Assembly (NCBI GenBank): GCA_937922655.1
Contig: CALAJH010000050.1
Location: forward strand, 1-64,000
Direction: 5' to 3'
From: an uncultured Bacteroidia bacterium
GTDB taxonomy: Bacteria > Bacteroidota > Bacteroidia > J057 > CALAJH01
DNA: 64,000 nt
Below the pieces are notes generated by a model, which saw only the letters and a list, made by a program, of their open reading frames with translations, had not been told where the DNA came from and searched no databases. Both the position numbers and the translations under genes were made by a program. Each line of letters starts with the position of its first letter. Position 1 is the first letter of the stretch. Positions 18,895 through 47,936 of this stretch are shown one piece after another.

Positions 18895-20916
18895 ATGAAA
18901 AGCCGTAAAGCTTTGGCCGTCGCAATAACGGCGGCCTTGATCATGGGCCAAATTCGGGCCCAAACCCAAAACTGTCCCCGAATTGCGCAACGCGGCGACA
19001 CCCTTTTCGCCGTGCCCGCAGACGCCCCGGCGTACCGATGGTACAAAAACGGCGCGCTCGTTGCGGGGCAAACCCAAAATTTCGTCGTCATGGACGAAAA
19101 CGCCGACTATGCGGTCGAAGTCTTCGGGGTTTCGCCGGCTTTCGACCTCGCGCCGATAACGGTCAAACTTTCGGGCCGCGTTTTCGACCCGCGTTTGCAA
19201 GCCGTGGCCGGGGCCGCCGTCCGCCTCGGCGGCCAAACCCGCTTCACCGACGACCAAGGCCGCTTCACGTTTGAATCCGTTGCCGTGACCCGGGGACGAA
19301 ACGTCGTCAAAATCGAAAAAAACGGCTATTTTTCCGCGCAATCGGCCGTTTATTTCGCCGCCGGCGACGAAAAAAACACCGCCGTCATGCTCCATCCCAA
19401 ACAAAACCCCGTCGCCTTCGCCGCCACCCAAGGTTTGCTGCTTCACAACAACGATTTTTCAATCCACATTCCCCCGAACGCCGTCGCCCGCGCCGACGGT
19501 CAAGCCTACGACGGGCCGGTGACCATGCACTGCGCCCATCTTTCGCCCGACTACCCGTATTTCGGTTTTGCAATGCCCGGCGGCGACTTTTTGGCCGTCA
19601 CGACCACGGGCCAAACCGTCGCCCTCGTTTCCTACGGCGTAATCGGCGTCGAATTGACCGACGAAACGGGCGCACCCCTCAATTTGCGCAACGGCGCGAC
19701 GGCGCGCGTCGTCATGCGCATGCCCCAAGGCCTCGAAAACCAACCCACCGCCGCCCTTTGGCATTTCGACGAAAACAACGGCCTTTGGCGCGAAAAAACC
19801 CTCCTTCGCGCACAAGGCGACTTTTTGGTCGGCGACGTGGGCCATTTTTCTTGGTGGAACATGGACTATTGGGGACCGTCGGGAACGGTCCGCGGACGCG
19901 TCGTCGACTGCGCCGGAAACCCCATCGCCGACGCCCCGTTTTGCATCGGTCAAAGCTGTTGGACGACCGACCCCAACGGCCGATTTACCGTCGTGCGCGT
20001 CCCCGCCGGACAAAACCTCACCCTGACCTCCAACGCCCAAACCCTCGTCTTTTCCCTCAACGAAGGCGACACCTTGGACGTGGGCGACGTTTTCGGAGGT
20101 TCGAGTTTAATCGCCGCGGGTTTGTTGGCGTGGGACGACGTCAACCAAGTTTCCGCCACCTTAACCGTTTTCACCAACGGCGGAGCCCCGCCTTTTGAGT
20201 TTTCGCTCGACAGCCTCCATTGGCAAAACGAAAACGTCTTTACCGGCTTGACCGCCAACGCCTATTCCGTGTGGATTCGCGAAGCCAACGCATGCGTCGC
20301 AAGAATCGAAACCTTCCTCCAACGCTTGGGCGCGGGATGCCTGCTCGCCGAAGGCCAAAGTTTGGATTCGCTGCCCCGTTATACCTCGTGGCTTTCCGCG
20401 CTCGAAGCCCACAACCAGGGCCTGCCCGTATACCGCTATGCAAGTTGCGAAAACCTCGGCCTCGTCGCCGCCAATTACGTTTGTTTGCGCGAACTGGCTT
20501 TGTCGGATTGCGGACTGACGCAACTGCCCGAAGGTTTGTCGAACCTTGTCGGATTGCAAATCCTGAATTTGTCCGGCAACCCGCTCGATACCGTGCCGTC
20601 GGTCGTGTTTTCGTTGCCGAACCTCCAAGTTTTGGATATGCGTTGGACCAACGTTCCGGAAGAGGACCGTGCGGGCTACGAGGCGAACCTGCCCGGCGTA
20701 ACGATTTATTGGGAGGCCTGCGACGCGCCGGACGGCTGGTCTTGGGCAAAACGCGCCGGCGGCACGAGTGTGGACGAGGCTTGGGGTGTGGCTTCGCACG
20801 CCGACGGTTCGGCAACCGTAACGGGCCGGTTTGGGGGCACGGCGGACTTCGGCGGCACAACCCTGCAAAGCGCGGGAGACTACGATATTTTCGTGGCGCG
20901 GGTGTGTCCGGAATAG
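18895..20916 (+). CDS. Surface protein: Ig-like, CarboxypepD_reg-like, LRR, single propeller blade
   Basis: 673 residues with a signal peptide (MKSRKALAVAITAALIMGQIRAQ). In order: an Ig-like segment (CPRIAQRGDTLFAVP to YAVEVFG), a carboxypeptidase-regulatory-like domain (GRVFDPRLQAVAGAAVRLGG), a ZU5-like stretch (FSIHIPPNAVARADG), a second regulatory-like domain (GRVVDCAGNPIADAP), a leucine-rich-repeat patch (LREL..LPEGLSNLVGLQILNLSGNPL), then one SBBP-like beta-propeller blade ending DIFVARVCPE. It is a paralog of 41445-44600 over its whole length, but that protein has seven blades. A one-blade propeller cannot close, so the C-terminus looks like the product of an internal deletion. No CHU_C or Por sorting domain is seen. 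Probably a surface binding protein. Confidence 0.85.
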   Translation: MKSRKALAVAITAALIMGQIRAQTQNCPRIAQRGDTLFAVPADAPAYRWYKNGALVAGQTQNFVVMDENADYAVEVFGVSPAFDLAPITVKLSGRVFDPRLQAVAGAAVRLGGQTRFTDDQGRFTFESVAVTRGRNVVKIEKNGYFSAQSAVYFAAGDEKNTAVMLHPKQNPVAFAATQGLLLHNNDFSIHIPPNAVARADGQAYDGPVTMHCAHLSPDYPYFGFAMPGGDFLAVTTTGQTVALVSYGVIGVELTDETGAPLNLRNGATARVVMRMPQGLENQPTAALWHFDENNGLWREKTLLRAQGDFLVGDVGHFSWWNMDYWGPSGTVRGRVVDCAGNPIADAPFCIGQSCWTTDPNGRFTVVRVPAGQNLTLTSNAQTLVFSLNEGDTLDVGDVFGGSSLIAAGLLAWDDVNQVSATLTVFTNGGAPPFEFSLDSLHWQNENVFTGLTANAYSVWIREANACVARIETFLQRLGAGCLLAEGQSLDSLPRYTSWLSALEAHNQGLPVYRYASCENLGLVAANYVCLRELALSDCGLTQLPEGLSNLVGLQILNLSGNPLDTVPSVVFSLPNLQVLDMRWTNVPEEDRAGYEANLPGVTIYWEACDAPDGWSWAKRAGGTSVDEAWGVASHADGSATVTGRFGGTADFGGTTLQSAGDYDIFVARVCPE

Positions 20917-21271: not shown

Positions 21272-21344
<73 letters not shown>

Positions 21345-21368
21345 CAAAAAACACGACCCTGCCGGCAC

Positions 21369-21441
<73 letters not shown>

Positions 21442-21461
21442 CTCATCTATTTTTTAGTTTC

Positions 21462-41444: not shown

Positions 41445-44400
41445 ATGACACTAAGTATGAACTTGACCCAAATTTTAATCCTGCAATTATTAATTTGTGG
41501 AAATATCCTTTACGCTCAAGAATGCCCACGCATTTTTCAACGTGGGGACACGCTCTTTGCCGTTCCCGACGACGGGCTAGGTTATCGCTGGTACAAAAAC
41601 GGCGAAGTTTTGGAAGGAGAAACGAATCCCTATCTGATTATTTCCGAAAACGGAACGTACGCCGTCGAAGTATTCGGGGAGTCTTCGACGGGCAAAGAGG
41701 TCGGCGAAGAAGATATTTGGGTCAGGGTAAACGTATCCGGCAGGGTTTTCGACCCCGAACTAAATCCGATTCAAGGCGCGAGCGTTGTTTTTAAAGACCA
41801 AATCGCTCAAACCGACGCCGAAGGGCATTATTATTTCGAGCCTATGGTCGTTCGCGGCGGGCGAACATGGGTGAAAATTCAAGCGCCCGGATTTTACGAC
41901 GGCCAAACGGCCTTTTACCTCTTTGAAGACGGCACGGAGCGTTCGCTTGCAACAATGCTTTTTCCCAAAAGCGACTCGATTGTTTTTGACGCGGTGCGCG
42001 GCGCGCTTCTTTACAATTCCGACTTTTCATTACAAATCCCCGCCGGCGCCATTGTCGACGCCGACGGCAACCCCTTCGAAGGCGAGGTTACGCTTAATTA
42101 TTCGTATGTCCCACCCGATTTTCCAAATTTTGGCACGGGCATGCCCGGCGGCGATTTCTTGATAGAAAACGGCGGTAGCGAACCCGTCATGATATCTTAC
42201 GGGATTATGGCCCTCGAAGCCCGTTCGACCGCCACGGGCAACCGTTTAAACGTTCGTTCGTCCACGCCCGCCCAAGTATCCGTGCGTATGCCCAACGGCA
42301 TGTCCTTTCAACCATCGGCCGCATTTTGGACCTTTAATCCCGGCACAGGCGCGTGGAGACAAACATCGACCGTAACCGTGCAGGGAAGAACTTTGTCGGG
42401 AACGATAGACAATTTTAATTCATGGACGAACGTTGATTATAAGGGACCGTCGGGAAGATTTCTCGGCAGGATACTCAACTGCCTTGGCCAACCCGTACCC
42501 AATGCCGTTGTAAGATTATTACTTGGCGGCGTAGGAAATTGGTTTGGAAGTAACGTTACGTATGCCGACCAATTTGGGCGTTTTGGATTCATGAACGTTC
42601 CGGCGAATATGAATTTAACGATTCAGACCACCAACGGTCAAGCAACGTTTACCCTAAGCCCGGGCCAAACGCTCAATATCGGAGATATTCAAGCGACGGC
42701 AAGCAATTTCCTTGCCTCCGCTTTAATGATGTGGAACGACATTACCCAAACCTCGATAACGTTGCAGGTTTTTGTAAACGGCGGCCCGCCGGGATTGACT
42801 TTCAGCATCGACAGCGTCAATTGGCAGTCAAGCCGGATTTTCAACATTCCCAATTCGCCCGGGTTGAACCCAAAAAGGTTTGTCTGGATACGCGAAACCA
42901 ACGGATGCGTTACGAAAATTACCGCCTATCTTCGTCGTATGGGGGCGGGATGCTTCCTTCCCATGGATACGTCCATAGATTCCCTGCCCGTTTATTCGAC
43001 GTGGATGAGCGCGGTCGAAGCCTACAATCAGGGCCAAACCATTTATCGATACGCAAGTTGCGAAAATCTTTCGATGGTTTTGGCCAATTTTATCTGCCTA
43101 AGGGAATTGGATTTGTCGTCCTGCAACCTTTCGCAAATGCCCGCCGGACTGGAATCCTTGATGGGCCTTCGAACGCTGAACCTCTCGAACAACCCCATCG
43201 ACCATGTTCCTCAGGGGGCGATCGGATTGCCCAATCTTAGCTTGTTGGATATGCGCGGCACGCTCGTTCCCGAAAGCGAGCGTGCGGGATATGAAGCACA
43301 AATGCCCGGCGTTACCATCTACTGGGAAACTTGCGACGGGCCGAACGACGGTTGGGATTGGGCGTTTCGAGGCGGCGGTTCGTCGGCCGATTTTTCCGCG
43401 CGTATAGCCACCCTTCCCGACGACGGATATTTTGCGATGGTCGGCCGGGTTGGCGCAGGCGCATCCATCGGAGACTCGACCGTTAACGCCGGCGCGGTTT
43501 TCGTCGGCGCTTTCAACCGGCATGGAAATTTACTTTGGTTGCGAACCCTCGACGCCAACGAAGCCAAAGACGTCGTTCTTTTGCCCGACTCCTCGGTCTG
43601 CGTGGTCGGCACCTACTTCAACGACTTGGACTTCGGCAACGGCGTGACGTTGGAAGGAAATCAATGGCAAGGAGGTTTTGTTTGCCGTTTCGACAAGGCG
43701 GGCAACGCACTGTGGGCAAAATCTTTCGACGGCCCCGACGACGACGAATTCGTAGCCATAGACGGGCATCCCGACGGTTCAAGCATAGCCGTTGCGGGAG
43801 CGTTTCGTGGTTTTGTTGTTTTCGGCAACGACACCTTGCAAGCCGTCGGCAATCAAGATTTGTTCTGGGCCGAACTAAATCCGCAAGGAGAAATATTGCG
43901 AACGCGAACATTGACGGGAACGGGCGACGTCTCGGCCGCAACAATAGCCGTTGGCACGGACGGTACCGTGATGCTTGCGGGTGTTTTCAGCGACACCCTT
44001 AATTTTCCCGGCGCCGTACTTACACAAGCAGGCGGTTTTGTGGTAAAATACGACACAACGGGCAATTATCTTTGGCATAGGCGTTCGAGCGCCCTTGAAT
44101 TTAAAGACGTGGCAATTCTTGGCGACGGTTCGTGCTTTGTCGTCGGAGGCTTTGAAGGAACGGCGGATTGGGAAGGAAACGCTTTGGAATCCGTCGGTTT
44201 ACGGGATGGTTTTTACGTTCATCTTGACTCCAACGGCGACTTGATTCTTCTTCGCAGGATTGGCGGCGCGGGCGAAGACAAGATAAACTCATTAGCCGTT
44301 TACAACGACTCTCTGGTTTACTTTGTGGGTGAACACGGCGACGTTTTTTCTTTCGCGGGAACGAACGTTTCCAACGGACTGATCGATTCTTTTGTTGCAA

Positions 44401-44600
44401 AAATGGATATATCAGGAAACGAAATTTGGTGTAAAACCATTGGCGGGGGAGGCAATGATTTTGGATACGGAATTGGAATCATGGAAAAAGGCAATATCGG
44501 GGTTGCCGGTTCTTTTGAGTCTCAAGTTCAAGCGGGTCCGCAAAACCTCGTCTCCTCCGGGGGTTCGGATATTTTTTGGATTAAACTTTGTGGAAATTAA
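41445..44600 (+). CDS. Surface protein: Ig-like, CarboxypepD_reg-like, LRR, seven-blade propeller
   Basis: 1051 residues; the signal peptide starts at the first or second ATG (41445 or 41457; MNLTQILILQLLICGNILYAQ). Domain order equals the 18895 paralog: Ig-like (CPRIFQRGDTLFAVP), regulatory-like (GRVFDPELNPIQGASV), ZU5-like (FSLQIPAGAIVDADG), second regulatory-like (GRILNCLGQPVPNAV) and an LRR patch (LRELDLSSCNLSQMPAGLESL). From about residue 650 seven SBBP-like blades of ~58 residues can be counted, each starting with a W-aromatic strand (LWLRTL, LWAKSF, LWHRRS, IWCKTI), with a GTFxxxxDFG-like core. Seven blades form a closed propeller. No sorting domain is seen at the end (DIFWIKLCGN). Confidence 0.88.
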   Translation: MTLSMNLTQILILQLLICGNILYAQECPRIFQRGDTLFAVPDDGLGYRWYKNGEVLEGETNPYLIISENGTYAVEVFGESSTGKEVGEEDIWVRVNVSGRVFDPELNPIQGASVVFKDQIAQTDAEGHYYFEPMVVRGGRTWVKIQAPGFYDGQTAFYLFEDGTERSLATMLFPKSDSIVFDAVRGALLYNSDFSLQIPAGAIVDADGNPFEGEVTLNYSYVPPDFPNFGTGMPGGDFLIENGGSEPVMISYGIMALEARSTATGNRLNVRSSTPAQVSVRMPNGMSFQPSAAFWTFNPGTGAWRQTSTVTVQGRTLSGTIDNFNSWTNVDYKGPSGRFLGRILNCLGQPVPNAVVRLLLGGVGNWFGSNVTYADQFGRFGFMNVPANMNLTIQTTNGQATFTLSPGQTLNIGDIQATASNFLASALMMWNDITQTSITLQVFVNGGPPGLTFSIDSVNWQSSRIFNIPNSPGLNPKRFVWIRETNGCVTKITAYLRRMGAGCFLPMDTSIDSLPVYSTWMSAVEAYNQGQTIYRYASCENLSMVLANFICLRELDLSSCNLSQMPAGLESLMGLRTLNLSNNPIDHVPQGAIGLPNLSLLDMRGTLVPESERAGYEAQMPGVTIYWETCDGPNDGWDWAFRGGGSSADFSARIATLPDDGYFAMVGRVGAGASIGDSTVNAGAVFVGAFNRHGNLLWLRTLDANEAKDVVLLPDSSVCVVGTYFNDLDFGNGVTLEGNQWQGGFVCRFDKAGNALWAKSFDGPDDDEFVAIDGHPDGSSIAVAGAFRGFVVFGNDTLQAVGNQDLFWAELNPQGEILRTRTLTGTGDVSAATIAVGTDGTVMLAGVFSDTLNFPGAVLTQAGGFVVKYDTTGNYLWHRRSSALEFKDVAILGDGSCFVVGGFEGTADWEGNALESVGLRDGFYVHLDSNGDLILLRRIGGAGEDKINSLAVYNDSLVYFVGEHGDVFSFAGTNVSNGLIDSFVAKMDISGNEIWCKTIGGGGNDFGYGIGIMEKGNIGVAGSFESQVQAGPQNLVSSGGSDIFWIKLCGN

Positions 44601-46613: not shown

Positions 46614-47936
46614 ATGATGAACGCCAAAAACAAACTAAGATTGTGGGTTGCGTCGACCCTATGTGTGGTTTTCTCCGCTTGCGGCGGCGGAAAAACCGAT
46701 GAAAAAAGCGGCGCTTCGGAAGCCGGTGCGGAAACCGAAGCCGAACTTACGGCATGGCTCAACGACCCCCGCGTAGACAAACTTGAGCCCCAGTCCGTCA
46801 AAATATCCCCGCGCCGCTACCAAACCGTAGCCGTGGGACAAGGAGCATTTGTCCACTTGGCGCCCGGTGCAATTTCCGACCCTCGCGGCCTAAGTCCGAA
46901 CACAAATCTTGACTTTAGGGTACGCTCCGTTATCAACATGGACGACTTTGTGCGCTACGGCATGCCCACCGAACCCGGAGACGGATTGGCTTCTTTCGCC
47001 TGTGCTTTCTATTTCGACGTTCGCGACACCTCGGGCAACGCCCTCGACCTCGACCCCATCCTTGGAATGATTGTCGCCTTTCCCGTTCCGAAAAATTCTC
47101 AGCTTGCCGGCGCCGAAAAGAAAAATTTGATTCTTTACCGGGGCATGACTACCGGTGAAAACAAACGCGACTGGGAACCCGTGGCCGACTTCAAAGCCGA
47201 ACCCAATTATTTGGGCGGCAACAAAAAGAAAATGGAAAAATGCCGCGCACTTGTAGGCGCCTACGTTGCCTCCAAGACCCGCAAAGGGCATCCGTTCAAA
47301 TTCGGTTCCCAAGACGAACTTACCTCTTATACTTTTGCCGGCGCCGGCGCTTCCGCCGCCAATTCCGATACCCTGTCGTTTTTTCAAGCCGGCGAAAAAT
47401 ATTTTTGGTCGAAACCCTTCGACGAAGGCGCGGCAAGCATATCGCTTAAATTTATGGACGGAGAAGCGAAGTACTACGACGTAACCGACGCCTGCAAGCC
47501 TTGTGCCGCCGCATTAAAATCCATCGAGGCCGACAATCCGTTGAAAAAAGCGGTGGCCGACGCCAAAAGCCCCGATTACGAATACGTTCATATGAAAGTT
47601 ACCGAAACCGGCTGGTACGCCGTTGGCCGGCCTTATTCCGGAGAAACGACTCCGATTGAGGGCAAGGTACAAAAACTTAACGGCGAAGCCGCCAGTTATT
47701 CGCGTATCCATTGGGTATCTCCCGCTCTGCGAATGCACATCGAACGCGACGTTAAGGACGGACAATTCAAATTCGACGTGCCTTCGGGCGCACCGTATAT
47801 TTTACTGGCGGAGCGGGGCAACAAAACGTTGGCTATGGCCGAGGGACGTGCAGGTCAAGCCGTACCCGAGCTTAAACTTGCCGTCGTATCCGAAGCCGAC
47901 CGAGACCGAGCCCTTCAAAAGCTTACGGGCAAATAA
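46614..47936 (+). CDS. Lipoprotein of unknown function
   Basis: 440 residues from a double ATG. The N-terminus is a lipoprotein signal with lipobox FSAC (C23) followed by GGG, a surface-export-like spacer, and a charged E/K-rich linker. The mature part has an all-beta look: a ZU5-like stretch (VGQGAFVHLAPGAISDPRG, then LDFRVRSVINMDDFVRYG) and a late carboxypeptidase-regulatory-like segment (IEGKVQKLNGEAASYSRIHWVS to FDVPSGAPYILLAERG). CKPC at about residue 301 is a possible redox or metal pair. No family is recognised. It shares the ZU5-like plus regulatory-like combination with the paralogous surface proteins in this window. Confidence 0.7.
   Translation: MMNAKNKLRLWVASTLCVVFSACGGGKTDEKSGASEAGAETEAELTAWLNDPRVDKLEPQSVKISPRRYQTVAVGQGAFVHLAPGAISDPRGLSPNTNLDFRVRSVINMDDFVRYGMPTEPGDGLASFACAFYFDVRDTSGNALDLDPILGMIVAFPVPKNSQLAGAEKKNLILYRGMTTGENKRDWEPVADFKAEPNYLGGNKKKMEKCRALVGAYVASKTRKGHPFKFGSQDELTSYTFAGAGASAANSDTLSFFQAGEKYFWSKPFDEGAASISLKFMDGEAKYYDVTDACKPCAAALKSIEADNPLKKAVADAKSPDYEYVHMKVTETGWYAVGRPYSGETTPIEGKVQKLNGEAASYSRIHWVSPALRMHIERDVKDGQFKFDVPSGAPYILLAERGNKTLAMAEGRAGQAVPELKLAVVSEADRDRALQKLTGK

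Follow-up and report, generated by a model that had tools for sequence, protein, structure and literature searches.

We describe a secreted-type protein of an uncultured Bacteroidia bacterium, here called P1, which ends in a single blade of the SBBP type, while its paralog on the same contig, P2, ends in seven. P1 probably lost six blades from a Cys-flanked seven-bladed propeller through an in-frame deletion at short homology, and the blade that it still carries would now be a remnant. The best evidence for this collapse is the pair of cysteines flanking the blade, which the original prediction for this DNA had overlooked.

One-blade and seven-blade paralogs

The window analyzed here is a stretch of 64,000 nucleotides from one contig of the 3.58 Mb genome. 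The genes for the two paralogs are separated by 20.5 kb, and the features relevant to the argument are as follows:

18895..20916, plus strand: P1, a secreted-type protein of 673 amino acids (ORF confirmed)
20719..20721, plus strand: P1 Cys609, directly ahead of the blade (TIYWEACDAPDGWSW); counterpart of P2 Cys630
20734..20913, plus strand: the single P1 blade, residues 614-673 (60 residues), consisting of strand d (WSWAKRA), then a, b and c
20905..20907, plus strand: P1 Cys671, the last-blade cysteine that ends strand c, with Pro-Glu-stop after it
41445..44600, plus strand: P2, the P1 paralog, 1051 amino acids with seven blades (ORF confirmed)
43332-43334 and 44589-44591, plus strand: P2 cysteine pair C630/C1049, counterparts of P1 C609/C671
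43350..44597, plus strand: P2 SBBP-type propeller, with blades starting at about 43350, 43530, 43707, 43893, 44067, 44241 and 44421

The proposal that these are two paralogs with the same order of domains, one carrying a single blade and the other seven, is borne out by the ORFs, by an identity of 48% over P1 residues 9-660 (E 8e-192; the CarboxypepD_reg/LRR part) and by a blade-profile search, which found one blade in P1 and seven in P2. The common order consists of two CarboxypepD_reg matches, a weakly FAM171/ZU5-like middle part, a short LRR region and the blade or blades. We take the start of both proteins to be signal-peptide-like and their middle part to be ZU5-like. P1 and P2 also have in common the linker CD.P..GW.WA.R.GG, which indicates that the fusion of LRRs to a propeller is older than the split between them. 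The length difference of 378 residues had been put at about six blades; 356 of these residues are indeed blades (416 in P2 vs 60 in P1, or 5.9 blade lengths), and the other 22 are indels upstream of the blades.

The P1 blade is complete and matches the SBBP-type blade profile at 78.4 bits in a leave-one-out comparison, the highest score among 29 blades when profiles were built without a blade's own protein. The short Pfam SBBP model listed neither P1 nor P2. With one blade and none past its stop codon, P1 falls short of ring closure by tandem blades. A tblastn search of the sequence 3′ of the stop found nothing blade-like (best E 0.006, a 16-residue match), and an early stop or frameshift with leftover blades downstream was thereby ruled out. 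P2 has seven tandem blades that are predicted to form a closed propeller, both by its AlphaFold model (pLDDT 90.8, pTM 0.90) and by a fold match to CylK.

In this genome and its order, SBBP propellers normally have seven blades. Besides P1, all seven of the full, countable SBBP arrays in the genome (P2, C55, C56, C44, C16, C1 and C53) have seven blades; the remaining SBBP arrays, which are more diverged, split or reaching contig ends, lie outside this count. P1 is the only one-blade case in the genome. Across 20 regions from eight relatives, seven blades were found in 17 of 22 frames and 14 in one frame, the other four being arrays scored in part, a fragment at a contig edge or debris. An array first scored as a six-blade propeller (L073) has a weak seventh blade. 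We also rejected a candidate second P1 case in a relative, a minus-strand frame of 192 amino acids (L113 on G002 C29) that encodes approximately 1.3 SBBP blades followed by a C-terminal tail and looks like debris at a rearrangement.

Several neighbouring or related sequences were recorded in passing. Two tandem tRNA-Phe genes (21272-21345 and 21369-21442), 23 bases apart and differing by one base near the 3′ end, lie about 350 bases past P1, and a lipoprotein-like protein of 440 amino acids with no Pfam match is encoded at 46614-47936. The SBBP arrays at the starts of two other contigs of the genome (L075 on G000:C69 and L076 on G000:C23) are perhaps a single gene split in the assembly.

Cysteine marks and a proposed collapse of the propeller

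P1 and P2 both fit a subtype of SBBP propellers that we define here as Cys-flanked, having one cysteine ahead of the first blade and another that ends strand c of the last blade (C609/C671 in P1, C630/C1049 in P2). Other loci of this subtype in the genome and a related MAG are L037, L038, L039, L116, L117, L119 and L121. In the column of the end cysteine, the residue is present in all four last blades besides that of P1 and in none of the 24 other blades, an arrangement with a chance probability of 4.9e-5 (1 in 20,475). Of 28 arrays examined in this genome and in relatives, both cysteines occur in eight, the upstream one alone in one, the end one alone in seven and neither in twelve. The upstream cysteine is accompanied by the end cysteine in eight of the nine propellers that have it (Fisher p 0.016, with loose windows), and in the single upstream-only array it sits inside the signal peptide. 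The association is imperfect in the other direction, with seven end-only propellers by the loose window.

Because P1 keeps both C609 and C671, its single blade has the entry of a first blade and the exit of a last blade. The repeat boundary starts with strand d. In a full ring the cysteine pair would therefore sit at the contact between strand d of the first repeat and strand c of the seventh, and a putative disulphide between the two could staple the ring shut. In the model of the P2 propeller the entry cysteine falls within residues 1-8 of the model, all of which have pLDDT values below 50. A limited literature search found no earlier report of a ring-closing cysteine pair in an SBBP subtype, and this possible pair seems to merit a separate note.

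The ends of the blade are less distinctive than had been proposed. Its start was said to resemble blade 1 of P2, which is indeed the best match among the P2 blades over the first 16 residues (9/16), but generic blades from other propellers tie with it. Its end was said to resemble blade 7, and its best match is a seventh blade, C55_b7, from another propeller in the same genome (7/12). However, the seventh blade of P2 itself matches the last 12 residues of P1 at only 4/12, level with P2 blades 3 and 6. In-register matching of blades between propellers was dropped; the P2-C55 comparison scored best in register (51 vs 35-48), and the others were mixed.

We propose that the common ancestor of P1 and P2 was a secreted protein with its LRR end fused to a Cys-flanked seven-bladed SBBP propeller. 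P1 would then have lost about 1.07 kb, containing six repeats, in an in-frame deletion that fused the beginning of blade 1 with the end of blade 7, most likely via slippage or recombination at short homology. One whole repeat would remain, running d-a-b-c and flanked by the entry Cys 609 on the strand d side and the exit Cys 671 on the strand c side. This pair could now bond only internally, forming a stapled mini-sheet, or with other chains. Recombination between the first and last repeats had been suggested previously. Our analysis likewise favours the internal loss of six repeats, but homologous recombination is doubtful: between blades of comparable (Cys-flanked) propellers in this genome, DNA identity does not exceed 63% and the longest exact match is 18 bases, which makes slippage at short homology the likelier route. 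An ordinary homologous exchange between the first and seventh blades would be unlikely except in a more uniform ancestor of P1.

Direction of change and alternative explanations

Scans of genome contigs, of viral sequences and of 22 genomes of the order, 395 of the class and 395 of the phylum, a set in which this genome seems to be the sole member of its family, found no orthologs of P1 or P2 and no LRR-propeller fusions. The closest homologs are two proteins from one MAG of the same order (CALDDN01), whose similarity is confined to the N-terminal and LRR parts; one stops directly after the LRRs (NTQIIW, stop) and the other reaches the contig edge. These homologs show that the front part occurs without a propeller and do not speak to the ancestral state of P1 and P2. 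In a P1/P2 relative from a same-order MAG (L034, 253-3258), a long array of LRRs takes the place of the propeller, with the stop directly after it. Three homologs of the P1 N-terminal region are found in tandem at G097:C5:83000-88087.

With no seven-blade ortholog found, the direction of change rests on parsimony. A one-blade ancestor that already possessed the cysteine pair, which otherwise occurs around full propellers, would need an earlier collapse, and a collapse in P1 is therefore the one-event account. The reverse direction, in which P2 was amplified to seven blades from a one-blade ancestor of both proteins, is in our judgement rather unlikely. It is in keeping with the amplification from single blades known from most lineages of propellers (Pereira and Lupas 2022, PMC9218822), with P1 being the slower copy and closer to the outgroup, and with a blade tree in which P1 and P2 blades as one clade are not rejected (p-AU 0.417). 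However, the P2 blades have a mean score of 35 to each other and 41 to the blades of other propellers, which counts against a recent amplification confined to P2, and DNA identity among them averages 51%. P2 blades 2, 4, 5 and 6 group weakly in the blade tree. Blade-by-blade phylogeny was set aside as a guide to direction, having too few columns and leaving 29 of 40 forks open.

The single blade could also be an artefact, if near-identical P1 blades had been collapsed during assembly, which would likewise fuse the first part of blade 1 with the last part of blade 7. Two SBBP arrays of another subtype (C69 and C23), whose blades reach 82% identity, extend to contig ends, indicating that blade arrays do trouble assembly, and the P1 blade is unusually near the consensus. 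Against this, repeats in this genome broke contigs instead of collapsing silently, the P1 frame is clean through a normal last-blade end, and the blades of all Cys-flanked propellers of the genome are, at the identities given above, far too diverged to collapse, so that P1 would have to be an exception among them. We consider an assembly collapse at P1 unlikely and give it only a small chance.

State of the lone blade and comparison with known propellers

We found no signs of pseudogene decay in P1: its frame is open, its blade is the best-scoring one and it has fewer unique changes than P2. Where the two outgroup sequences have the same residue, 20 sites of the N-terminal part differ in P1 only and 44 in P2 only, and this slower change of P1 does not fit a simple loss of function. 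Either the proposed collapse in P1 was recent or the blade has been kept by selection. The original prediction that a lone blade must be non-functional, oligomerise or swap with another protein was too strong, given that the blade is undecayed and that no six-blade partner that would complete it was seen in the genome. Most likely P1 keeps working through its N-terminal region and LRRs, parts that homologs have with no matching propeller attached; the blade would be tolerated or re-used, perhaps as a Cys-stapled remnant.

A functional single blade would require P1 chains, or P1 and another protein, to form a ring in which strand d pairs with strand c of a neighbour. In the AlphaFold model of P1 residues 481-673, strands a-b-c have pLDDT values of 89-96 and strand d is unpaired and of low confidence, so that the blade is not closed on itself; multi-blade propeller fragments are known to form oligomeric rings (PMC6805158), and the intact state of the P1 blade points the same way. 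The model is nevertheless poor and single-chain (overall pTM 0.35), no six-blade partner was seen in the genome, and one-blade constructs from two WD40 propellers remained unfolded monomers, even in a permuted "velcro" form (PMC6805158). We see a slim chance for such an assembled ring. A specific version, in which single-blade P1 chains form a disulphide-linked homo-oligomeric ring with the old ring-closing cysteine pair linking neighbours, has a very slim one; if true, P1 would be a natural ring with one blade per chain. Fold matching from the P1 LRR and blade model was rejected on account of the same low pTM.

The contrast of one blade with seven, the cysteine marks, the intactness of the P1 blade and its lack of decay are observed directly, whereas the direction of change, its mechanism, the disulphide and the present function are inferred. 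Propellers are believed to have arisen by growth from single blades, but engineered single WD40 blades from two propellers stay unfolded. P1 is a natural, undecayed protein that has exactly one blade and retains an apparent ring-closing cysteine pair, next to a seven-bladed paralog, and it offers a ready way to test if stapling or assembly can make a lone blade stable.

The nearest solved relative of the P2 propeller is CylK (PDB 7ron, 7fh6), which matches by profile at E 1e-60, by the blade profile at E 3e-28 and, for 7ron, by Foldseek at E 2.1e-19 (TM 0.75 by query). P1 differs in having one blade, and CylK is a catalytic alkylating enzyme. The P2 propeller also matches the LipL53-family SBBP lipoprotein model (NF047494) at 61 bits, far under the curated cut-off of 400, and P2 is not a member.

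Partial propellers, often C-terminal, and broken propeller genes have been documented (Pereira and Lupas 2022, PMC9218822), and P1 would be a neat variant of these disrupted propellers and C-terminal blade fragments rather than a new kind. It resembles them in carrying a partial propeller at the C-terminus. In the worked examples of that study the gene has a frameshift or a stop and leftover blades lie next to it, whereas P1 is in-frame, has one complete blade without leftovers, and its presumed source blades were diverged. The oligomeric propellers assembled from fragments of one to six blades (Afanasieva 2019, PMC6805158) likewise concern incomplete blade sets. Those pieces are engineered WD40 sequences whose one-blade versions were unfolded, whereas P1 is natural, belongs to another family and has two flanking cysteines.
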